Assembly (NCBI RefSeq): GCF_025961575.1
Contig: NZ_JAOQNX010000010.1
Coordinates: 62,001-126,000 of the forward strand
Length of the DNA stretch: 64,000 nucleotides
Source: Rhodoblastus acidophilus
GTDB taxonomy: Bacteria; Pseudomonadota; Alphaproteobacteria; Rhizobiales; Beijerinckiaceae
Reading direction: 5' to 3'
Made by a program: the position numbers and the translations under genes. A model generated the notes under the pieces. That model made no database searches. It was not told the DNA's origin and saw nothing but the letters and a program-made list of their open reading frames with translations. Of this stretch, positions 439-9,425 are shown piece after piece. Each line of letters starts with the position of its first letter. Position 1 is the first letter of the stretch.

Positions 439-1614
439 TTAGTCGATCTGCGCCAGGGCTTGGGCGAGATCGGCGATCAGATCGACGGCCTCCTCGATGC
501 CGACGGACAGCCGCACCAGCGAGTCGCTGATTCCCGATTCCGCGCGCCGCTCCGGCGGAATGGTGGCGTGGGTCATCAGCGCCGGATGTTCGATCAGGCT
601 TTCGACGCCGCCCAGGCTCTCGGCCAGGGTGAACACCCGGCAGGATTCGAGGAAGCGGCGGGCGCCCGCAAGATCGGTGACGAGATCGACCGAGATCATG
701 CCGCCGCCGCCGCGCATCTGCCGCTCCGCCAGCTTGTGCTGGGGGTGCGAGGGCAGGCCGGGATAGATCACGCGCCGCACTTTTGGGTGGCTTTCCAGCC
801 AGGAGGCGACGGCGAAGGCGTTTTCGCAATGCCGGCGCATGCGCACGTCGAGTGTCTTCACGCCGCGCAGCGTCAAAAAGGCGTCGAACGGCCCGGCGAT
901 GGCGCCGACCGCGTTTTGCACAAAACCGATGCGTTCGGCGAGATCGGCGTTGTGGCCGACAATGGCCGCGCCGCCGATCACGTCGGAATGGCCGTTGAGA
1001 TATTTGGTCGTGGAATGGACCACGACGTCAAACCCGAGCTCCAGCGGCCTTTGCGCCCAGGGGGTGGCGAACGTGTTGTCGGCGACGGCGATGATCCCGT
1101 TTTCGCGGGCGATGTCCGCGAGCGCGGCGAGGTCGACCAGGCGCAGCAGCGGGTTGGTCGGGGTTTCCGCCAGCACCATGCGGGTTTCAGGCCGCAGCGC
1201 CGTGCGTAAATTTTCGGGATGGGTCAGATCGACATAGCTGATGGTCAGGCCGGCGCTGCGCGCGCGCACGCGCTCCAGCAGGCGATAGGTGCCGCCATAG
1301 AGGTCGTCGCCGGCGATCAGATGGTCGCCGGGCTGCAACAGCTCCAGCACCGCGGCGATGGCGGCCAGTCCCGAGGCGAAGGCGAAGCCTTTGGAGCCGC
1401 CTTCGAGATCGGCGAGGCAGCGCTCCAGCGCCCAGCGGGTGGGATTGTGCGAGCGGCCGTAATCCAGCCCCTTGTGCACGCCCGGGCTTTCCTGGGCGAA
1501 GGTGGAATTGGCGTAGATCGGCGGCATGATCGCGCCGGTGGACGGGTCGGGCGCCTGTCCCGCATGGATCACGCGCGTGCCGAAGCCGGCCTTGATTTTC
1601 GAGGATGCGTTCAT
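439..1614 (-). CDS. Cystathionine gamma-lyase / gamma-synthase family PLP enzyme
   Basis: This 391-residue protein belongs to the Cys/Met-metabolism PLP family. Visible features are the YGRSHNP phosphate-binding segment near residue 52, the LYGGTY ring-stacking tyrosine near 106, the ADN aspartate near 179 and the Schiff-base lysine Lys204 in HSTTKYLNGHSD. The gene starts two bases after the cystathionine beta-synthase stop codon, so the two are co-transcribed. That context favours cystathionine gamma-lyase: cystathionine to cysteine, 2-oxobutyrate and ammonia, the second step of reverse transsulfuration. Cystathionine gamma-synthase or a bifunctional enzyme cannot be excluded from sequence alone. 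The ATG at 1614 is the first residue matching family N-termini. Confidence 0.9.
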   Translation of the reverse strand: MNASSKIKAGFGTRVIHAGQAPDPSTGAIMPPIYANSTFAQESPGVHKGLDYGRSHNPTRWALERCLADLEGGSKGFAFASGLAAIAAVLELLQPGDHLIAGDDLYGGTYRLLERVRARSAGLTISYVDLTHPENLRTALRPETRMVLAETPTNPLLRLVDLAALADIARENGIIAVADNTFATPWAQRPLELGFDVVVHSTTKYLNGHSDVIGGAAIVGHNADLAERIGFVQNAVGAIAGPFDAFLTLRGVKTLDVRMRRHCENAFAVASWLESHPKVRRVIYPGLPSHPQHKLAERQMRGGGGMISVDLVTDLAGARRFLESCRVFTLAESLGGVESLIEHPALMTHATIPPERRAESGISDSLVRLSVGIEEAVDLIADLAQALAQID

Positions 1615-1616
1615 GG

Positions 1617-2990
1617 TCAGGCCGCCTTCCGGCGCAGATGGTTGAGCAGGTCGAAGCGGGTGATCAGGCCGAAGAACACGTCGCCCTCCGCGATAATGGC
1701 GACATAGCCGCGGTCGAGAACGTTCTGCAAAACGTCGATGTCGGCGTCGGGCGGCAGGATTTCCAGATCGGTTGTCATGGCCTCGGCGGCGGCTTTGGAA
1801 AAGTTTGCGGGATTGGCGCGCACGCGGGCGAGAATGTCGGATTCGTCGAGCAGGCCGACGATGCGGCCGCCGTCGATCACCGGCAATTGCGACACCTCGG
1901 CATAGCGCATGCGCACGAAGGCGGTTTGCAGCGGATCGGAGGGGGTGACGCTGATCACGCCGCCCTCGTCGAACCGCCGCGCCACGAGGTCGCGCAGGTC
2001 GCCGAAGTTTTTGCGCGGCAGCAGGCCCTGCTCGACCATCCAATTGTCGTTGTAGACTTTTGAGAGATAGCGGGTGCCGGTGTCGCAGACCAGCGTCACC
2101 ACGCGCTTGGGCGTGGTCTGTTCGCGGCAATAGCGCAGCGCCGCGGCGAGCAGGGTTCCGGTGGACGAGCCGCCATGAATGCCTTCGGCGCGCAACAATT
2201 CGCGGGCGGCCGCGAAACTTTCGGCGTCCGGAATTTCGTAAGCCTTTTTGACGCCGCTGAGGTCGGCGATCGGCGGGATGAAATCCTCGCCGATGCCTTC
2301 GACCAGCCAGGAGCCGGCGACGCCGATCCGGCCGGTGCGGATGTAGTCTGCGAGAATCGAGCCCTTGGGATCGGCGAGGACGAATTCGGTTTTCGGGCTG
2401 GCGCGCTGGAAGAAGCGGGAGAGGCCGGTGAGCGTGCCGCCGGAGCCGACGCCGCACACCACGGCGTCCACCGCATGGTCCATCTGGCCGAAGATTTCCG
2501 GTCCCGTCGATTGCTCGTGCGCGGCGGGATTGGCGGGATTGTTGAACTGGTCGACGAAGAACGAGCCGGGAATTTCGGAGGCGATTCGCGCGGCGAAATC
2601 CTGGTAATAATCGGGATGGCCCTTGCCGACGTCGGAGCGCACCACATGCACGACCGCGCCCAGCGCCTTGAGCTGCAGGACCTTTTCGGCGGCCATCTTG
2701 TCGGGGACGACGAGCGCGAGGCCATAGCCCTTGGCGCGGGCGATCAGCGCCAGGCCTAAGCCGGTGTTGCCGGCCGTCGCCTCGACGATGGTGGCGCCGG
2801 GCTTCAGCTTGCCCTCGCGCTCCGCGGCTTCGACCATCCACAGACCGATGCGATCCTTGATCGACCCGCCCGGATTCTGCGACTCCAGCTTCAGGAACAG
2901 CCTGCACTTGCCGGTGTCGAGGCGGGTGGCTTCGATCAGGGGCGTATTGCCGATAAGTCCGAGCACGGCCGGACGGGAGTCTTTGCTCAT
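1617..2990 (-). CDS. Cystathionine beta-synthase (PLP domain plus C-terminal CBS pair)
   Basis: This 457-residue enzyme condenses serine and homocysteine to cystathionine. The PLP fold spans about residues 8-320, with the Schiff-base lysine Lys45 in GGSIKDR, an Asn-containing ATAGNTG loop and the phosphate-binding GVGSGGT loop. A pair of CBS domains occupies about residues 335-455, a usual site of regulation. Unlike human CBS there is no N-terminal heme domain. It is the first gene of a two-gene reverse transsulfuration operon with the cystathionine gamma-lyase gene. The ATG at 2990 fits family starts. An AT-rich upstream region carries a motif also found before cysE (see 3108-3122). Confidence 0.93.
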   Translation of the reverse strand: MSKDSRPAVLGLIGNTPLIEATRLDTGKCRLFLKLESQNPGGSIKDRIGLWMVEAAEREGKLKPGATIVEATAGNTGLGLALIARAKGYGLALVVPDKMAAEKVLQLKALGAVVHVVRSDVGKGHPDYYQDFAARIASEIPGSFFVDQFNNPANPAAHEQSTGPEIFGQMDHAVDAVVCGVGSGGTLTGLSRFFQRASPKTEFVLADPKGSILADYIRTGRIGVAGSWLVEGIGEDFIPPIADLSGVKKAYEIPDAESFAAARELLRAEGIHGGSSTGTLLAAALRYCREQTTPKRVVTLVCDTGTRYLSKVYNDNWMVEQGLLPRKNFGDLRDLVARRFDEGGVISVTPSDPLQTAFVRMRYAEVSQLPVIDGGRIVGLLDESDILARVRANPANFSKAAAEAMTTDLEILPPDADIDVLQNVLDRGYVAIIAEGDVFFGLITRFDLLNHLRRKAA

Positions 2991-3097
2991 TGTCGATCCC
3001 GTTGGGAATGAAAGTCAGGGCGCCTTGCCGGGGCCGCCCGGCGCCTCCGGACATGACCGGACGCGCTGCGACGGACACGCTTCGACGCTGGTTCATA

Positions 3098-3130
3098 TAT
3101 GCATATAGTCCACCAAATGGATAGACTATT
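3098..3130 (-). promoter_or_regulatory. Putative CBS operon promoter with TAGTC/GACTA inverted repeat and cysE-like motif
   Basis: On the minus strand the region reads AATAGTCTATCCATTTGG and continues into GTGGACTATATGCATATATG. It contains an inverted pair TAGTC...GACTA (3106-3127) and an AT-rich TATATGCATATAT segment suitable as a -10. The 15-mer ATCCATTTGGTGGAC (3122 to 3108) closely resembles ATCCATTAGTTGACA upstream of cysE at 9489 to 9475. It lies about 120 bp before the CBS start, so a long leader or a more proximal promoter is possible. Confidence 0.45.
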
Positions 3131-3248
3131 TTGCCGCACTCATCCTCTGCGCCGGGGCTGGCATAGCAGCGCTCATGTCGCGCGCGCGAGGATGGGGCGG
3201 AGGATTATTAGAATATAAAAACGATAGACAAAAAAATTAGTCCGGCAT

Positions 3249-3273
3249 AAAAATTTGTCGTCTCGAAATTTTT
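3249..3273. repeat. AT-rich inverted repeat in the divergent intergenic region
   Basis: The perfect 8-bp arms AAAAATTT (3249-3256) and AAATTTTT (3266-3273) are separated by nine bases. The repeat sits in the 476-bp gap (2991-3466) between the divergent CBS operon and the methyltransferase-cupin-PLP operon. It could be an operator or promoter element for the plus-strand operon. Nothing else recognisable was seen in that gap, and no SAM-II riboswitch signature was found. Confidence 0.4.
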
Positions 3274-3466
3274 GACCGGGAATTGCCGTGATGTCGCGCT
3301 TTGCGCTCCTCAAGATCAAGCGTGGCCTCGCGCCGGCCGCGCCGCCGGGATTGTGTCGCGCAGCACTGCGCTGGGTCGATCGCTGACCCATTCCTCTCCT
3401 CGGAATTTCCGCCATCCGCCGCCCCGGCCGCGGCGGCGCGCGCCCGCCACCAAAGGTTAAACGTTT

Positions 3467-4441
3467 ATGAACGCCATTGTTTCCTCCGCGTCGCTGTCGC
3501 TCGACATCGCGCCCTATCTCGATGTCGCCGAGGTCCGCCGGGTGCGGGCGCGCGTCGACATCGCCGTCGCCGACCGCGCCTGGCGGCCGCAGGTCGAAGA
3601 CCGCTCGCGCGACTGGGTGGCGAGCGTCGCCGCCCCCTGTTTCAAGATTTTGCGCGCCCGGCGCGGCGACGCCGCCTGCAAGGCGTTTTGCGCGCTTGGC
3701 ACCGGCGCCGGCCTCGATGCGCTCGCCGCCATCGAACTGCTGGGCGCCGATGTGGTCGGCGTGACCGATCTGTTTCCCGACGTGGTCGAGACCGCCGCCG
3801 GCAATGTGCGCCGCAATCTCGTGGGGGAGGTGGCGCTGCACGCCGGCGCCGGCGACCTGCTGGCGCCCCTGCGGGCGAGCGGGGTCAGGTTCGATCTGAT
3901 CTATGAGAACCTGCCCAATCTCCCGGTGGCGGATGCGGCGCAAGTCGAAGTGGACAAGACCAGCGCCGCCTTTCTGGCGCCGCGCAGCGAAGCCACGCCG
4001 AAAGCCGTGGCCGATGGGCTGCTGACGCTCCACTATCTCGCTTTGCTTCAGGCCCATGATTTTCTCAAACCCGGCGGCGCCGTGCTGTCGACCATCGGCG
4101 CGCGGCTGCCGCTCAGCGTGCTGACCGAAATGGCCGAGGCCGCCGGCCATAGACCGAGCTTCCTCACTTATTGGTGGAAGGCGCAGGCCGACGCCGACGA
4201 GGTCATCGCCTCCTATGCGCAATGGCAAAAGCAGGGGCTGTTCTTCCACTTCTATCCCGTCGAAGTCCTGGAGGCGGCTTTCGCCGGGCTCGAACTCGAA
4301 CAGGCGGGACGCGACGCGCTCGCCATCGAACGCGACCTGCGCTCCTACCAGCTCGACGCCGCGCAGGCCTGGCGCCTGCACCGGCAGGGGCGGCGCATTG
4401 GCCATACCGTGGCTGCGCTGCTGTCGGAGCCGAAGAGATGA
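3467..4441 (+). CDS. SAM-dependent methyltransferase, first gene of the cupin/PLP operon
   Basis: This 324-residue protein has a Rossmann-type methyltransferase core at about residues 60-200. Motif I is the LGTGAGLDALAA segment near 82, an acidic residue ends beta-2 (VTDLFPDV near 101), and YENLPNLPV near 147 sits where HemK/PrmC-type enzymes carry an NPPY-like motif. The divergence of that motif makes the methyl acceptor unpredictable. The stop overlaps the next start as ATGA at 4438-4441, so it is translationally coupled to the cupin gene. Context suggests a substrate in sulfur-compound or methionine-related metabolism, which is inference. The start at ATG 3467 follows an AAAGG-like ribosome site. 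Confidence 0.8.
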   Translation: MNAIVSSASLSLDIAPYLDVAEVRRVRARVDIAVADRAWRPQVEDRSRDWVASVAAPCFKILRARRGDAACKAFCALGTGAGLDALAAIELLGADVVGVTDLFPDVVETAAGNVRRNLVGEVALHAGAGDLLAPLRASGVRFDLIYENLPNLPVADAAQVEVDKTSAAFLAPRSEATPKAVADGLLTLHYLALLQAHDFLKPGGAVLSTIGARLPLSVLTEMAEAAGHRPSFLTYWWKAQADADEVIASYAQWQKQGLFFHFYPVEVLEAAFAGLELEQAGRDALAIERDLRSYQLDAAQAWRLHRQGRRIGHTVAALLSEPKR

Positions 4442-5031
4442 GCGCCGAACTCGCCCAACTCGTGGCGCGGCTGCGCGCGCGGTTGAACCGGGCCGATGGG
4501 CGGGCGGGGCTTGAGGCCTTGAACGTGCAGCGTCTGCTCGACCGCGTCGCCCATGATCCCGCGCCTTATGCGGCCAGCGCGCATCCGCTGGTGCGCCACC
4601 TGCCCGCGGCGCTGGCCGGGCTGGAGCGCGACGCGCCCGAACTCGCGGCGCTGCTCGGCCCGCTCGCCGAACACCTGCCCTGGCGCTATGGCTATGAGGC
4701 GACCGCCGCCTTTCCCGACTTGCATCTCAACATGGGCTGGGCGGAATTCGTCGGACCCGCCGCGCCCTGGCGCAGCGACGAGGTGTGTCTCGGCCTGACG
4801 CTGATTGGTCCGCACAGCTATTACGCCCCGCATCGGCATCCGGCGGTCGAGCTCTATCACGTGCTGACCGGCGTCGCGGAATGGAGCAGCCATTGGCGCC
4901 GCCCCGGCGCCTTCATCCTGCATGACAGCAACCAGATCCACGCCATGCGAACCGGGGACGAGCCGCTGCTCGCCCTCTACACCTGGAGCGGCGACGTGGT
5001 TTCGCCCTCCGTCTGGAGCCCACAGCCATGA
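4438..5031 (+). CDS. Cupin of the DMSP-lyase (DddQ/DddL-like) family
   Basis: This 197-residue protein has a helical N-terminal half and a C-terminal single cupin barrel. Cupin motif 1 is HRHPAVELYHVLTG, with the two histidines, the glutamate and the tyrosine that DMSP lyases use for metal and substrate. Motif 2 is the segment ending NQIHAM, supplying the third histidine. This pattern matches the dimethylsulfoniopropionate lyase family, in which DddQ-type enzymes split DMSP to DMS and acrylate. Many terrestrial members have no demonstrated activity, so the substrate is uncertain. It overlaps its upstream and downstream neighbours by four bases on each side (ATGA), pointing to a stoichiometric function with them. 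Confidence 0.75.
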   Translation: MSAELAQLVARLRARLNRADGRAGLEALNVQRLLDRVAHDPAPYAASAHPLVRHLPAALAGLERDAPELAALLGPLAEHLPWRYGYEATAAFPDLHLNMGWAEFVGPAAPWRSDEVCLGLTLIGPHSYYAPHRHPAVELYHVLTGVAEWSSHWRRPGAFILHDSNQIHAMRTGDEPLLALYTWSGDVVSPSVWSPQP

Positions 5032-6191
5032 GCCCGCATCCGCAAACCCAGGCCCTGCACGCCGGTCATCGCGCCGATCCGCAGACCGGCGCGGTGGCGC
5101 CGCCGATCTATTTCACCACCTCCTACCATTATCCCAGCACCGAGTTCGCGACGCGGCTCTTCAATCTGGAGGTGATCGGCTACACCTATACCCGCACCAG
5201 CAATCCCTCGCGCGAAGTGCTGGAGCGCCGGGTCGCCGCCATCGAGGGAGGCAAGGCCTCGCTCGCTTTGGCCTGCGGCGCGGCGGCCGTTTGCGATGCG
5301 CTGCTGTCGCTGGTCCAGACCGGCGACAATGTGGTGTTCGCCCGCGCGACAGTGGAGGGCGGCGGACGCGATCTGGTCGTCCAGCTGCGGCGCTTCGGCA
5401 TCGAGGTGCGCGACGCCGTTTCGCCCGAGGATTTTGTCGCCGCCACCGATGCGCGCACCCGGCTGTGGTTCGCCGAGAGCCTTTTTGTGCCGAGCCTGGA
5501 GCGCTTTCCCATCGCCGCCGTCGCCGCCGCCGGTCGGGCGCTGGGCGTGCCGTTGGCGATCGACAATTCTCATCTGCCGTTTCTCGTTCGTCCCGTGGCG
5601 GAGGGGGCGGCGATCGTCGTCTATGCCGCGGAGACCTGGCTGACCGCGGGGCGGGCCGATGGCGGCGTGCTGGTCGACGCAGGGACGTTTTCCTGGGAGT
5701 CCGAGCGCTTCCCCACGCTGTTCACGCCCGACCCGTCCTATCACGGCGCCGTCTGGACCGAAGTGGTGAAACAATGGAACGCCTCGCCGCTGACCGCGCG
5801 GGCGCGCGGCGGCGTGCTGCGCGATCTCGGCGCCGCCATCAGCCCGATGGCGGTGTTCCAGATTTTGCAAAGTCTCGAAAGCCTGCCGCTGCGCATGCGC
5901 GCCCATGCCGAAAACGCTTTGCGAATTGCCGAGGTCTTGGCGTCCCGGCCGGAGGTTTCGGGCGTTGCCGCCGCCGGTGGATTGGTGGCGTTCCGTTTGC
6001 CGCATCCCGAAAAATTTTTGGACGCGCTGTCGCTGATTTCGCGGGACGGCGGTCTCGGCGGACTGCGCAGTTCGGTCGTCGGTTCGGCCGAGGGCCGCGT
6101 CCTGCTTTCCGTCGGCGTCGAGCATGTCGATGACATTCTGCAAGACCTCAATGCGGCGCTCCAGACCGCCCTCAATTCCAACCAGAAGTGA
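5028..6191 (+). CDS. O-acetylhomoserine sulfhydrylase-like PLP-fold protein lacking the catalytic lysine
   Basis: This 387-residue protein is a clear paralogue of the O-acetylhomoserine sulfhydrylase encoded next to it: long stretches such as DPSYHGAVW and GAA-SP--FQ-LQ-LE-LPLR-R-H match. The Schiff-base lysine motif YSTTKYIGG of the neighbour is here YAAETWLTA, placing Thr203 where Lys205 lies in the intact enzyme. The stacking tyrosine of the YGGT motif is also changed (EGGG), and the C-terminal arginine in VRLSVG is replaced by leucine (VLLSVG). The phosphate-binding YTRTSNP and the IDN aspartate remain. About 40 residues before the C-terminus are missing. The frame is intact, so it looks like a pseudoenzyme or regulatory subunit rather than a pseudogene. 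Confidence 0.85.
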   Translation: MSPHPQTQALHAGHRADPQTGAVAPPIYFTTSYHYPSTEFATRLFNLEVIGYTYTRTSNPSREVLERRVAAIEGGKASLALACGAAAVCDALLSLVQTGDNVVFARATVEGGGRDLVVQLRRFGIEVRDAVSPEDFVAATDARTRLWFAESLFVPSLERFPIAAVAAAGRALGVPLAIDNSHLPFLVRPVAEGAAIVVYAAETWLTAGRADGGVLVDAGTFSWESERFPTLFTPDPSYHGAVWTEVVKQWNASPLTARARGGVLRDLGAAISPMAVFQILQSLESLPLRMRAHAENALRIAEVLASRPEVSGVAAAGGLVAFRLPHPEKFLDALSLISRDGGLGGLRSSVVGSAEGRVLLSVGVEHVDDILQDLNAALQTALNSNQK

Positions 6192-6201
6192 GACTTTTTC
6201 A

Positions 6202-7485
6202 ATGGCGTTGAAACCTGAAACCCTGGTGCTGCACGCGGGCTATCGCAGCGATCCCACCACGACCTCGGTGGCGGTGCCGATCTACCAGACCACCAGCTAT
6301 CAGTTCCGCGACACCGAACATGCGGCGAATCTGTTCGGGCTCGCCGAACTCGGCAATATTTATACGCGGCTGATGAACCCGACCAATGATGTGCTGGAGC
6401 AGCGCCTGACCGCTCTCGAAGGCGGCGTCGCCGCGCTGGCGGTCGCTTCGGGGCAGGCGGCGAGCACCTTTTCCATCCTGAACGTCGCCCAGGCCGGCGA
6501 CAATTTCGTCACCTCCACCGACCTCTATGGCGGCACCTGGAACCTGTTCGCCAACACGTTTAAACAGCTCGGAATCGAAGCGCGCTTCGTCGATCCCTCC
6601 GACCCCGAAAATTTCCGCCGCGCCACCGATGCGCGCACCCGCGCCTATTACGCGGAAACCCTACCCAATCCCAAGCTTCAGGTGTTTCCGATTCCGGAAG
6701 TGGCGAAGATCGCCGACGAGTTGGGCGTGCCGCTGATCATCGACAACACCTCCGCGCCGATCATCGCGCGCCCGTTCGATCACGGCGCCCATATCATCGT
6801 CTATTCCACCACCAAATATATCGGCGGGCATGGGACTTCCATCGGCGGCGCGATCATCGATTCCGGCAAGTTCGATTGGGAGAAGCACGCCGAACGCTTT
6901 CCGCTGCTGAACCAGCCCGACCCCAGCTATCACGGCGCCGTCTGGACGCAGGCCGTCAAACCGCTGGGGCCCATCGCTTACATTCTGCGCGCCCGCGTCA
7001 CCTTGCAACGCGACATTGGCGCGGCCGTCAGTCCGTTCAATGCGTTCCAGACGCTGCAGGGGCTGGAGACGCTGCCGCTGCGCATTCGCGAGCACAACAA
7101 GAATGCGCTCGCCGTCGCCGATTATCTCGCCAAGCACACGAAAGTGGTCAAGGTGATTCATCCCAGCGTCCAGAGCGGCGAACCCCGGCGGCGCGCCGAT
7201 GTCGTGCTCAAGGGCGGCTATGGCGCCTTGGTCGGCTTTGAACTCGCTGGCGGCAAGCAGGCCGGCAAGACCTTTATCGACGCGCTGAAACTGCTCTATC
7301 ACGTCGCCAATATCGGCGACGCCCGCAGCCTCGCCATCCATCCCGCGACGACAACCCATTCGCAGCTCTCGCCGGAAGACCAGCTCGCCACCGGCGTGTC
7401 GGACGGCTATGTGCGGCTTTCCGTGGGCATCGAGCATATCGACGACATTCTCGCCGATATCGCCCAGGCGCTCGAAGCGGCCTGA
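6202..7485 (+). CDS. O-acetylhomoserine (thiol)-lyase / sulfhydrylase
   Basis: This 427-residue PLP enzyme makes homocysteine from O-acetylhomoserine and sulfide, or methionine if methanethiol is used. All expected residues are present: YTRLMNP phosphate clamp, LYGGTWNLF stacking tyrosine, IDNTSAP aspartate, Lys205 in YSTTKYIGGHG, the long NIGDARSLAIHPATTTH segment that distinguishes sulfhydrylases, and VRLSVGIEH with the carboxylate-binding arginine. Length matches MetY-type enzymes (about 430). The ATG at 6202 starts ten bases after the inactive paralogue ends. The pairing suggests a hetero-oligomer or a recent tandem duplication. A strong terminator follows the gene. Confidence 0.93.
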   Translation: MALKPETLVLHAGYRSDPTTTSVAVPIYQTTSYQFRDTEHAANLFGLAELGNIYTRLMNPTNDVLEQRLTALEGGVAALAVASGQAASTFSILNVAQAGDNFVTSTDLYGGTWNLFANTFKQLGIEARFVDPSDPENFRRATDARTRAYYAETLPNPKLQVFPIPEVAKIADELGVPLIIDNTSAPIIARPFDHGAHIIVYSTTKYIGGHGTSIGGAIIDSGKFDWEKHAERFPLLNQPDPSYHGAVWTQAVKPLGPIAYILRARVTLQRDIGAAVSPFNAFQTLQGLETLPLRIREHNKNALAVADYLAKHTKVVKVIHPSVQSGEPRRRADVVLKGGYGALVGFELAGGKQAGKTFIDALKLLYHVANIGDARSLAIHPATTTHSQLSPEDQLATGVSDGYVRLSVGIEHIDDILADIAQALEAA

Positions 7486-7490
7486 AAAGA

Positions 7491-7522
7491 ACAGGCGGCG
7501 CCTCGCGGCGCCGCCTGTTTGT
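7491..7522 (+). terminator. Rho-independent terminator of the methyltransferase-cupin-PLP operon
   Basis: A perfect 12-bp stem (ACAGGCGGCGCC at 7491-7502 with GGCGCCGCCTGT at 7507-7518), loop TCGC, is followed by TTGT. It begins six bases after the sulfhydrylase stop. A second smaller inverted repeat TGGCGCC/GGCGCCA (7524-7550) may serve the convergent carbonic anhydrase operon. Confidence 0.8.
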
Positions 7523-7565
7523 CTGGCGCCGTCGAGGAGACCCGGCGCCAGCGCAACTCAAAAAC

Positions 7566-8156
7566 TCAGATCGCTTTGCCGATCTCCGTCGCCTTGGGCA
7601 CGTGGACCAGCTTGCCCGTCCGCACGTCATAGACATAGCCGTAGATCGGAATGTTTTTCGGCACGAGCGGATGCGCGCGAATGCGCGCCACATCCTGCGC
7701 CACGCTCTCTTCTTGCGACTTGATCGTGTGCCATTTGATGAAATGGCCCGCCGCGCAGCCGCCGCCGTGCTGCGGATTGCTCCATTTCAACGTGGCCGGG
7801 TCGAGCGCGGCGGTCGCCAGGCTGTCATCCAGGAGGTCGCTGATCACCTCGTCGCAGAACAGCTCCATGCCGCAATTGGTGTGATGAATCACGAACCATT
7901 CCAGCGTGCCTAGCAGCTTGTGGGAAATCACCAGCGAGCGGATGGCGTCGTCGGTGGCGCGCCCGCCGGCGTTGCGGATCACATGCGCGTCGCCCTCCGA
8001 CAGGCCGGCATATTTGGCCGGGTCGAGGCGGGCGTCCATGCAGGTGAGAATGGCGAAGCGACGCGCCGGCGGCAGCGCCAGTTCGCTCTTCTCGCCAAAA
8101 TTTTCGGCATATTTGGCGTTGGCGTCGAGCACGTCCGAGAGGATTTTGCTGGTCAT
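7566..8156 (-). CDS. Beta-class carbonic anhydrase
   Basis: This 196-residue enzyme interconverts carbon dioxide and bicarbonate. Zinc ligands are Cys39 (CMDAR), His92 and Cys95 (HHTNCGM), and the Asp41-Arg43 dyad of beta carbonic anhydrases is present. A Gly/His-containing loop near 130-140 ([11 protein letters not shown]) carries an extra cysteine and histidines. The ATG at 8156 gives a full-length N-terminus. It is the last of three minus-strand genes (cysE, an unknown gene, carbonic anhydrase) with gaps of 20-22 bases, a probable operon. A metabolic reason for linking it with serine acetylation is not obvious. Confidence 0.92.
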
Positions 8157-8546: not shown

Positions 8547-9425
8547 TCAGATCGCGTAGGAAAAGGCGCGGTAGCTGAGCTCCCGCAGCACCTGGTCCAT
8601 GTCGCGATAGGGTTCGTCCTGGTGCTTGGCGACCACTTTGGCGGGCACGCCGGCGACCGTGGTGTGGGCGGGGACGGCATGCAGCACCACCGAGCCCGCC
8701 GCCACCCGCGCATATTCGCCGACCTCGATATTGCCGAGGATTTTGGCGCCGGCGCCGAGCAGGACGCCGCGCCGCACTTTGGGATGGCGGTCGCCCGCCT
8801 CCTTGCCGGTGCCGCCGAGGGTGACGTTTTGCAGGATCGAGACGTCGTCGTCGATCACCGCGGTCGAGCCGACGACGAAGCCGGTGGCGTGGTCGAGGAA
8901 CACGCCGCGGCCGATCCGCGCCGCCGGATGAATGTCGGTCTGGAACAGGTCGGAGGAGCGGCTTTGCAGATAAAGCGCGAAATCCTGCTTGCCCTGCGTC
9001 CACAGATGGTGGGCGAGGCGGTGGATCTGGATGGCGTGGTAGCCCTTGAAATAGAGGAAGGGCTCGATGAAGCGGTCGCAGGCGGGGTCGCGGTCGATCA
9101 CCGCGTTAATGTCCGTGCGGAAGGCGAGGCCGATGTCGGGGTCTTCGGCGAGCGCCGCCGTGAAGGTCGCGACAATGTGGCCGACGGGAACGAAATCGCT
9201 GGCGAAGCGGCTGGCGACGCGATGAATCACCGCCTCTTCGAAGGAATCCCGGTCGAGAATGGTTTGCCGCAGCAGGGCGCGCAGATTGGGCTCGGAGTCG
9301 AAGGCGGATTCCGCCTCTTCGAGCAGTTTCCGCCACAGCGAGTCTTGGGCCGCGGCGGGATGGTCGAGCGGCGCGGGAAAGGTGGACGAAGCGGCCAGGG
9401 TCAGGTGGCGGGGAGTCGGAGCCAT
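8547..9425 (-). CDS. cysE: Serine O-acetyltransferase
   Basis: This 292-residue enzyme transfers acetyl from acetyl-CoA to serine, giving O-acetylserine for cysteine synthesis. The N-terminal 140 residues are the helical SAT domain. A left-handed hexapeptide-repeat beta helix follows from about 180, including DIHPAARIGRGVFLDHATG with the catalytic Asp/His pair, GGTGKEAGDRHP and AGVPAKVV. The tail is about 20 residues longer than the hexapeptide core and does not end in isoleucine-rich CysK-binding form except for a final Ile. The start at 9425 follows a GAGGG ribosome site. Its promoter carries the motif shared with the CBS operon. Confidence 0.92.
   Translation of the reverse strand: MAPTPRHLTLAASSTFPAPLDHPAAAQDSLWRKLLEEAESAFDSEPNLRALLRQTILDRDSFEEAVIHRVASRFASDFVPVGHIVATFTAALAEDPDIGLAFRTDINAVIDRDPACDRFIEPFLYFKGYHAIQIHRLAHHLWTQGKQDFALYLQSRSSDLFQTDIHPAARIGRGVFLDHATGFVVGSTAVIDDDVSILQNVTLGGTGKEAGDRHPKVRRGVLLGAGAKILGNIEVGEYARVAAGSVVLHAVPAHTTVAGVPAKVVAKHQDEPYRDMDQVLRELSYRAFSYAI

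Follow-up and report, generated by a model that had tools for sequence, protein, structure and literature searches.

Why would a methyltransferase, a cupin of the dimethylsulfoniopropionate (DMSP) lyase family and two sulfhydrylase-like proteins be encoded together in one operon? The question is raised by a stretch of 64,000 nucleotides from Rhodoblastus acidophilus (contig NZ_JAOQNX010000010.1, positions 62,001 to 126,000 of the forward strand; hereafter the window), in which four plus-strand open reading frames (ORFs) form the four-gene operon recognized by the original prediction, which was made from the DNA letters and their translations (Table 1). The gene families named there are confirmed as well: a methyltransferase (MT), a DddQ-type cupin, an O-acetylhomoserine sulfhydrylase (OAHS) paralogue without the catalytic lysine, and an OAHS that retains it. 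No published description of this four-gene set was found in the titles and abstract openings of open-licence PMC papers among the matches listed. Our analysis suggests an undescribed form of sulfur recovery, in which a carbon-sulfur-carbon bond is first methylated and then broken.

The breaking step is assigned to the cupin. It belongs to the Pfam family DMSP_lyase (PF16867, 87.6 bits against a curated cut-off of 27) and is the sole match to this family in the source genome. Its structural model, built from 31 sequences (predicted local distance difference test score, pLDDT, 94.1), retrieves DddQ in each of the first six Foldseek matches, followed by a gap of more than four orders of magnitude, and a sequence profile also places DddQ first. 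Tyr120, His123, His125, Glu129, Tyr131 and His163 of DddQ, reported as essential in the part of the DddQ study consulted (PMC4437653), are invariant in all 31 aligned cupins, the one of the window included, the alignment comprising 31 of the 59 cupins found. The protein thus shares with the DddQ DMSP lyases (PDB 4LA2, 5CU1, 4B29) a family score above cut-off, the best fold match and six of six essential residues; unlike DddQ, it is coupled to an S-methyltransferase-like gene. By the chemistry available to it, a DddQ-like site could abstract a proton beside a carboxylate and expel a sulfonium group, and we propose that the cupin is a sulfonium beta-lyase. A cupin acting at a step before OAHS in methionine salvage is also known from the 1-methylthioxylulose-5-phosphate (MTXu-5P) methylsulfurylase of the methylthioadenosine (MTA)-isoprenoid shunt (Rru_A2000; passages of PMC4958253). 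The substrate of that enzyme, according to the same passages, is a sugar-phosphate thioether, whereas the cupin of the window groups with DddQ by Pfam family and fold. A single Methylobacteriaceae metagenome-assembled genome (MAG; G006, loci L005/L030, L017/L031 and L020/L021/L032) carries four such cupins, one adjoining an MT, two in tandem by a sulfonate-type ABC importer and one by an oligopeptide-type ABC importer, the importer types being assigned by eye.

The methylating step would fall to gene 1, which is single-copy in the source genome, has zero Pfam matches and matches NCBIfam weakly, to methyltransferases such as PrmC and PrmA. When its AlphaFold model (39 sequences, pLDDT 91.7) was compared with solved structures by Foldseek, the first nine matches were all chains of MmtN (E 2.3e-12 to 8.8e-11). 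The next match, a carbamoyl N-methyltransferase, follows at E 1.4e-8, nearly four orders of magnitude behind the best MmtN chain and two behind the weakest. MmtN is a methionine S-methyltransferase whose product is the sulfonium compound S-methylmethionine (SMM), as stated in the passages seen of PMC9135737 (PDB 7VVV, 7VVW, 7VVX). In addition to the best fold match, MT has in common with it the GxGxG motif and an aligned equivalent of Asp69, which contacts the ribose of S-adenosylmethionine (SAM). MmtN is linked with DMSP-synthesis genes; MT instead is linked with a cupin lyase and with OAHS or a MetNIQ-type importer. We refer to the protein as MmtN-like, not as an MmtN, and regard it as a putative thioether S-methyltransferase.

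The pair of MT and cupin extends well beyond Rhodoblastus. Scanning a single genome for each species, we detected 76 loci with MT relatives in Alpha-, Beta- and Gammaproteobacteria, Fibrobacter, Butyrivibrio and Verrucomicrobia, along with a few distant matches; the scan rests on two short patterns, and Fibrobacter and termite-gut MAGs are over-represented in it. The MT profile missed one locus, L112, and the 76 loci in the counts below are 75 of the scan plus the window, with ORF-based gene calls beyond the window. In 58 of them MT and a cupin gene are no more than 2 kb apart; these loci come from Alpha- and Betaproteobacteria, Fibrobacter, Butyrivibrio and Verrucomicrobia. The 18 loci without a nearby cupin comprise nine of a second MT clade described below, two distant or short matches (L110, L111), one with a cupin 6 kb away (L104) and six others (L047, L052, L065, L077, L084, L085) in which no cupin was found in the available sequence, three of these having less than 3 kb downstream. 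The closest MT relatives are those of R. acidophilus DSM 142 (91% identity), DSM 137 (80%) and R. sphagnicola (73%; L040, L038 and L039, respectively), and all three records show the same order of MT, cupin, lysine-less gene and OAHS. Since this order recurs and the ratio of nonsynonymous to synonymous substitution rates (dN/dS) is low, at 0.04-0.32 across the four genes (three pairs), the operon is more than a chance arrangement. The distribution inside the genus is patchy, the cupin being present in three of the six same-genus genomes listed. MT occurs in 6 of 397 genomes of the order at E<=1e-8, in one of them weakly.

What, then, would provide the pair with its substrate? Among the 42 cupin loci whose upstream sequence extends to 4 kb or more (neighbours within 5 kb; the window, with 3.5 kb, is excluded), two kinds of partner genes stand out, OAHS-type genes and genes of a methionine-type importer, MetNIQ. 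At a strict, ORF-based limit 28 loci have OAHS-type genes only and 10 have MetQ/MetI only; the two never occur together, and four loci are without either (Fisher 7e-7). A looser recount by tblastn, which revealed a hidden OAHS gene in L057, gave 29 with OAHS only, seven with Met genes only, three with both and three with neither (Fisher 4e-4, like the former value uncorrected for kinship). The names MetN, MetI and MetQ derive from one representative each, at 333, 198 and 208 bits, below the curated cut-offs. Strict exclusivity of the two partners was rejected on account of the three loci of 42 that hold both at the looser limit; OAHS and MetNIQ replace each other as a tendency. Such an exchange can be understood if both supply a methionine-like thioether. 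The gene directly upstream of MT (less than 400 bp, same strand) is OAHS at 16 of the 42 loci and MetI at 8, so that the gene order follows the reactions we propose.

Because a likely sulfonium maker adjoins, and here overlaps, a likely sulfonium breaker, we propose that the operon is a methylate-then-eliminate module acting on carbon-sulfur bonds, in which MT would methylate a thioether amino acid and the cupin would eliminate one of its arms; we assign this reading a probability of about 0.4. The OAHS of gene 4, perhaps in complex with gene 3, would join a thiol R-SH to O-acetylhomoserine, yielding a methionine-like thioether amino acid, which in the MetNIQ version would be imported instead. 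The MmtN-like MT would transfer the methyl group of SAM onto the thioether sulfur and create a sulfonium, from which the DddQ-type cupin, by means of its metal and tyrosine, would remove the proton adjacent to the carboxylate of R and drive out the sulfur, the products being an alkene and a methylthio amino acid. Were R carboxyethyl (from 3-mercaptopropionate) or derived from cysteine, methionine would form together with acrylate or dehydroalanine, and the sulfur of an awkward thiol would end in methionine. We infer the S-methylation of a thioether, the identity of that thioether, the order of the reactions and their product from the observed gene set, gene order, conservation, folds, catalytic residues and two kinds of partner. 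The proposal in its widest form is unlikely as a whole: anaerobes and phototrophs would have a new way of making methionine, running from OAHS-joined or MetNIQ-imported carboxyl-bearing thioethers through MmtN-like methylation to removal of the foreign arm by the cupin, which would yield methionine directly, with a pseudoenzyme OAHS subunit tuning the sulfhydrylase in Rhodoblastus.

Thioether bonds that are not activated resist cleavage, and the solutions known from microbes include a nitrogenase-like reductase as well as pyridoxal phosphate (PLP)-dependent lyases. If our reading is true, methylation makes the thioether a good leaving group, and elimination by a metal-containing cupin would then be a simple, oxygen-independent answer. 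The DMSP-lyase family would gain a role outside the sea, in the rumen, the termite gut and freshwater phototrophs. This would explain the genes annotated as DMSP_lyase in organisms of these habitats, and it would caution against taking such genes for a sign of dimethyl sulfide (DMS) production.

Several observations weigh against the methylate-then-eliminate proposal. The superposition of MT on MmtN is moderate (template modelling score 0.54-0.59 by query, root-mean-square deviation 4.8-7.5 A, 19-22% identity), the profile match to MmtN is weak (E 0.0019 for the whole sequence, 0.066 for the domain) with PrmC- and PrmA-type proteins matching at least as well, and a single-sequence search with MT found no significant MmtN similarity. 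Glu127 and Arg132, which contact methionine in MmtN, and Cys121, which contacts SAM, are unconserved in the MT profile alignment, which is itself weak in this part, and MmtN Glu250 falls outside the aligned part. Since these residues are unconserved, the acceptor of MT may differ from methionine or may not be sulfur. The split between the partners depends on the limit chosen, with both present in L046, L058 and L059 at the looser one. L104, outside the 42 with its distant cupin, combines MetQ/MetI with a lysine-less OAHS, and in L043 and L113 the lysine-less gene is the sole OAHS-type gene counted. Hand-assigned OAHS and MetNIQ labels require about three changes each on a quick MT tree, the split being uncorrected for kinship. 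Finally, the order in Rhodoblastus is MT-cupin-OAHS and not OAHS-MT-cupin.

It is conceivable that no sulfonium is formed at all: MT would methylate oxygen, nitrogen or a thiol, the cupin would be an isomerase, lyase or oxygenase with a different substrate, and OAHS would join the product to homoserine to give a non-protein amino acid. The weak similarity of MT to PrmC- and PrmA-type proteins leaves room for this, as do the catalytic diversity of cupins and the fact that the OAHS-like sulfhydrylase FUB7 is one of the relatives of gene 4 with a solved structure. We consider it unlikely, if worth serious attention: sulfonium enzymes headed the results for MT and for the cupin in separate fold searches, conservation extends to all six DddQ residues, and the neighbours are sulfur-amino-acid genes and importers. 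Alternatively, the MmtN fold could be taken at face value, so that MT converts methionine into SMM, which the cupin then breaks down to DMS and a C4 product; OAHS and the methionine-type importer, the two kinds of partner, would both supply methionine. Yet the sulfonium of SMM is at the gamma carbon, beyond a DddQ-style beta-elimination, the Glu127 and Arg132 of MmtN are unconserved in MT, and such disposal looks wasteful beside genes of sulfur-amino-acid synthesis. We hold this to be improbable.

The original prediction had the reactions run the other way, with cupin and MT freeing a thiol that is captured by OAHS. OAHS accepts thiols and the genes are adjacent; a sulfonium lyase of the DddQ type, however, releases a thioether, which is not directly usable by OAHS, and 7 (looser limit) or 10 (strict limit) of the 42 cupin loci have an importer but no OAHS-type gene within 5 kb. 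Capture of a cupin-released thiol is thus very improbable. A longer path would pass through the nitrogenase-like methylthio-alkane reductase (MAR): MT would methylate a methylthio compound (3-methylthiopropionate or S-methylcysteine), the cupin would free DMS, MAR would convert it to methanethiol and OAHS would use this for methionine. Genes similar to marD of this reductase do lie within about 10 kb of MT in four loci (L043, L113, L044 and L036, from M. fulvum, Rhodopseudomonas rhenobacensis and one Rhodomicrobium-like locus), and the product in L113 scores 915 bits against 9FMG, a MAR structure by the passages seen of PMC12552129. MarD-like matches of at least 190 bits occur in 16 of 48 MT-bearing genomes, which represent 48 of 50 loci chosen, as compared to 10 of the 397 genomes of the order, and within the order in three of five genomes with a strong MT (p 1.1e-4, uncorrected for kinship; a weak sixth, G332, was excluded, and two of the three belong to one genus). 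Moreover, in the Rhodospirillum rubrum island from Rru_A0774 to marBHDK (A0793-A0796), OAHS, MetN, MetQ-like and cystathionine gamma-synthase proteins are raised on MTA according to passages of PMC4958253 and PMC12552129. The co-occurrence with MarD-like genes suggests that the MT-cupin module is in the same sulfur-scavenging setting as this methionine-salvage island, for which the passages name no such MT or cupin.

In the source genome, by contrast, the best MarD-like match among 18 candidates scored reaches 97.7 bits at 26% identity, the level of the nitrogenase background, with no match at E<=1e-60, and the best in R. acidophilus DSM 142 is likewise background at 96.4 bits, whereas DSM 137 does carry MarD-like genes; true MarD-like matches elsewhere range from 313 to 1233 bits. 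The module therefore cannot depend on MAR in the source genome. As 32 of the 48 MT genomes, several of them incomplete MAGs, are also without a MarD-like match, the path through DMS is hardly probable. With a lyase that releases a thioether and a source genome without a MarD-like match above background, the reverse order, from OAHS or importer to MT and on to the cupin, fits better than thiol capture. In genus g138 the MarD-like genes (G383, G442, G467) each contain one in-frame TAG or TAA in a six-frame match, for which sequencing error, end effects or decay may be responsible.

But what is the role of two sulfhydrylase-like proteins in one operon? Gene 4 is a member of the MetY family (TIGR01326, 606.5 bits against a cut-off of 495) and keeps the PLP lysine K205 in the motif STTKYIGGH. 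Three other OAHS genes above cut-off are present in the source genome, and so gene 4 can be specialised. Gene 3 is a paralogue that scores 311 bits, below the cut-off, with Thr203 in place of the PLP lysine (YAAETW); it is without the arginine matching R405 of P0004, and its C-terminal region 380-397 is deleted. Of the 56 full-length OAHS-type sequences (Cys/Met PLP family) obtained at MT loci, eight have lost the lysine, namely four from Rhodoblastus, two from M. fulvum and one each from R. rhenobacensis and Telmatospirillum; the eight form one clade (support 100/99) spanning four genera. The original prediction had staked its case in advance on co-occurrence of the four families across genomes: MT, cupin and OAHS-type genes are indeed found together in distant phyla, whereas the four-gene set that includes the lysine-less partner is not widespread.

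In the OAHS family, a tyrosine and an arginine serve the cofactor of the neighbouring subunit, while the lysine and the C-terminal arginine serve the protein's own site. All eight lysine-less sequences keep Tyr54 and Arg56, have lost Lys205, Asn156 and Arg405, and have region 380-397 wholly or partly deleted, a pattern that agrees with a role as partner subunit. Compared with the active OAHS, gene 3 changes more quickly and is yet constrained (dN/dS 0.19-0.32 versus 0.04-0.07, three pairs). Together with the single clade across four genera, these values led us to reject a decaying pseudogene; judged by sequence, the lysine-less OAHS proteins are pseudoenzymes of a single, monophyletic family, and purifying selection acts on them. 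A class-level search gave matches to the lysine-less profile in 108 of 385 genomes; 30 loci were read, and no further lysine-less protein was among them, the lysine being kept in all 29 besides the window's own.

Another MT-linked OAHS clade comprises 31 sequences (support 100/100) from Rhodomicrobium, termite Zoogloeaceae, Oxalobacter, Fibrobacter, Butyrivibrio and one verrucomicrobium (L048-L106). Three representatives score above the TIGR01326 cut-off and best match the NCBIfam model PRK06702 at 566-568 bits against its cut-off of 709; from its sequences, the clade may possibly be a sulfhydrylase with its own thiol. Its members carry the motif SATKYIDGH or variants of it. A rhizobitoxine-type OAHS fusion, considered for a long ORF beside MT-cupin in L033 that resembled an aminotransferase fused to OAHS, was discarded: the N-terminal part looks spurious and the rest matches weakly, with 79 bits to P0004, the same gene in L042 scoring 72 bits.

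The nine loci of the second MT clade (L073, L083, L099, L102, L103, L105, L107, L108, L109), which are without a cupin, bear on the substrate of MT. Eight of them lie on one side of a branch with an approximate likelihood-ratio (SH-aLRT) support of 97, L109 being too short to be included. Four (L073, L102, L108, L109) contain a cysteine-synthase-type gene and L107 an apparent fragment of one, all nine contain EamA or LysE exporter genes and eight a LysR-type gene, with families taken from single representatives. The cysteine-synthase-type and exporter neighbours point to an amino-acid thioether as MT substrate, and the function of this clade may be to produce a sulfonium amino acid for export. 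Photorhabdus and Marinobacter are among its hosts.

Within the operon, the three start/stop couplings that had been predicted are two ATGA overlaps, at 4438 between MT and cupin and at 5028 between cupin and gene 3, plus a short gap before gene 4, whose length of 10 bp (6192-6201) had been given exactly. The single terminator noted after gene 4 corresponds to a strong hairpin (-29.3 kcal/mol, z -4.27, none of 200 shuffles equally good); its U-run is weak (UGUCUGG) and it is absent from the output of a consensus terminator scan, so that a terminator is likely only. The neighbours of the operon are, by Pfam and NCBIfam, further sulfur-amino-acid genes, in agreement with the organosulfur setting that had been supposed, and a carbonic anhydrase gene lies between the operon and the convergent serine acetyltransferase-type gene. 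No RNA regulator was detected in 3000-7700 at Rfam gathering scores. A mobile origin of the operon was also rejected: one scan of viral contigs found no MT relatives, and in plasmids no site covers 80% of the operon, the best 5 of 181 matches being PLP-dependent transferases or unannotated.

Table 1. Features of the operon and its surroundings in the window
Feature	Position	Strand	Basis
Gene 1, SAM-dependent methyltransferase (MT), 324 aa, MmtN-like fold	3467..4441	+	ORF; AlphaFold model and Foldseek
Gene 2, DddQ-type cupin, 197 aa	4438..5031	+	PF16867, Foldseek
Gene 3, lysine-less OAHS paralogue, 387 aa, proposed partner subunit	5028..6191	+	NCBIfam, alignment, tree
Gene 4, OAHS, 427 aa, catalytic Lys205 kept	6202..7485	+	TIGR01326
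14-bp hairpin 3' of the operon, probable terminator, weak U-run	7489..7520	+	Shuffle test
Divergent neighbour, cystathionine beta-synthase-like PALP+CBS protein	1617..2990	-	TIGR01137, 368 bits, below cut-off of 510
Divergent neighbour, cystathionine gamma-synthase/lyase-type PLP enzyme	439..1620	-	Best NCBIfam match 510 bits, cut-off 513
Convergent neighbour, serine acetyltransferase-type protein	8547..9425	-	PF06426, 111.8 bits

Two further genes recur near MT. A small conserved protein is encoded just downstream of MT in L050 (11079-11456, between MT and cupin) and in L065 (10956-11327), the latter without a Pfam match. Proteins of the DUF1847 family (PF08901) are found near MT-cupin in L039, L040, L042, L043, L070, L094 and L113, the family search having been made on L113. 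The source genome encodes its DUF1847 protein on another contig (G000:C27:35870-36328), near an OAHS gene and, by eye, an apparent homoserine acetyltransferase gene.

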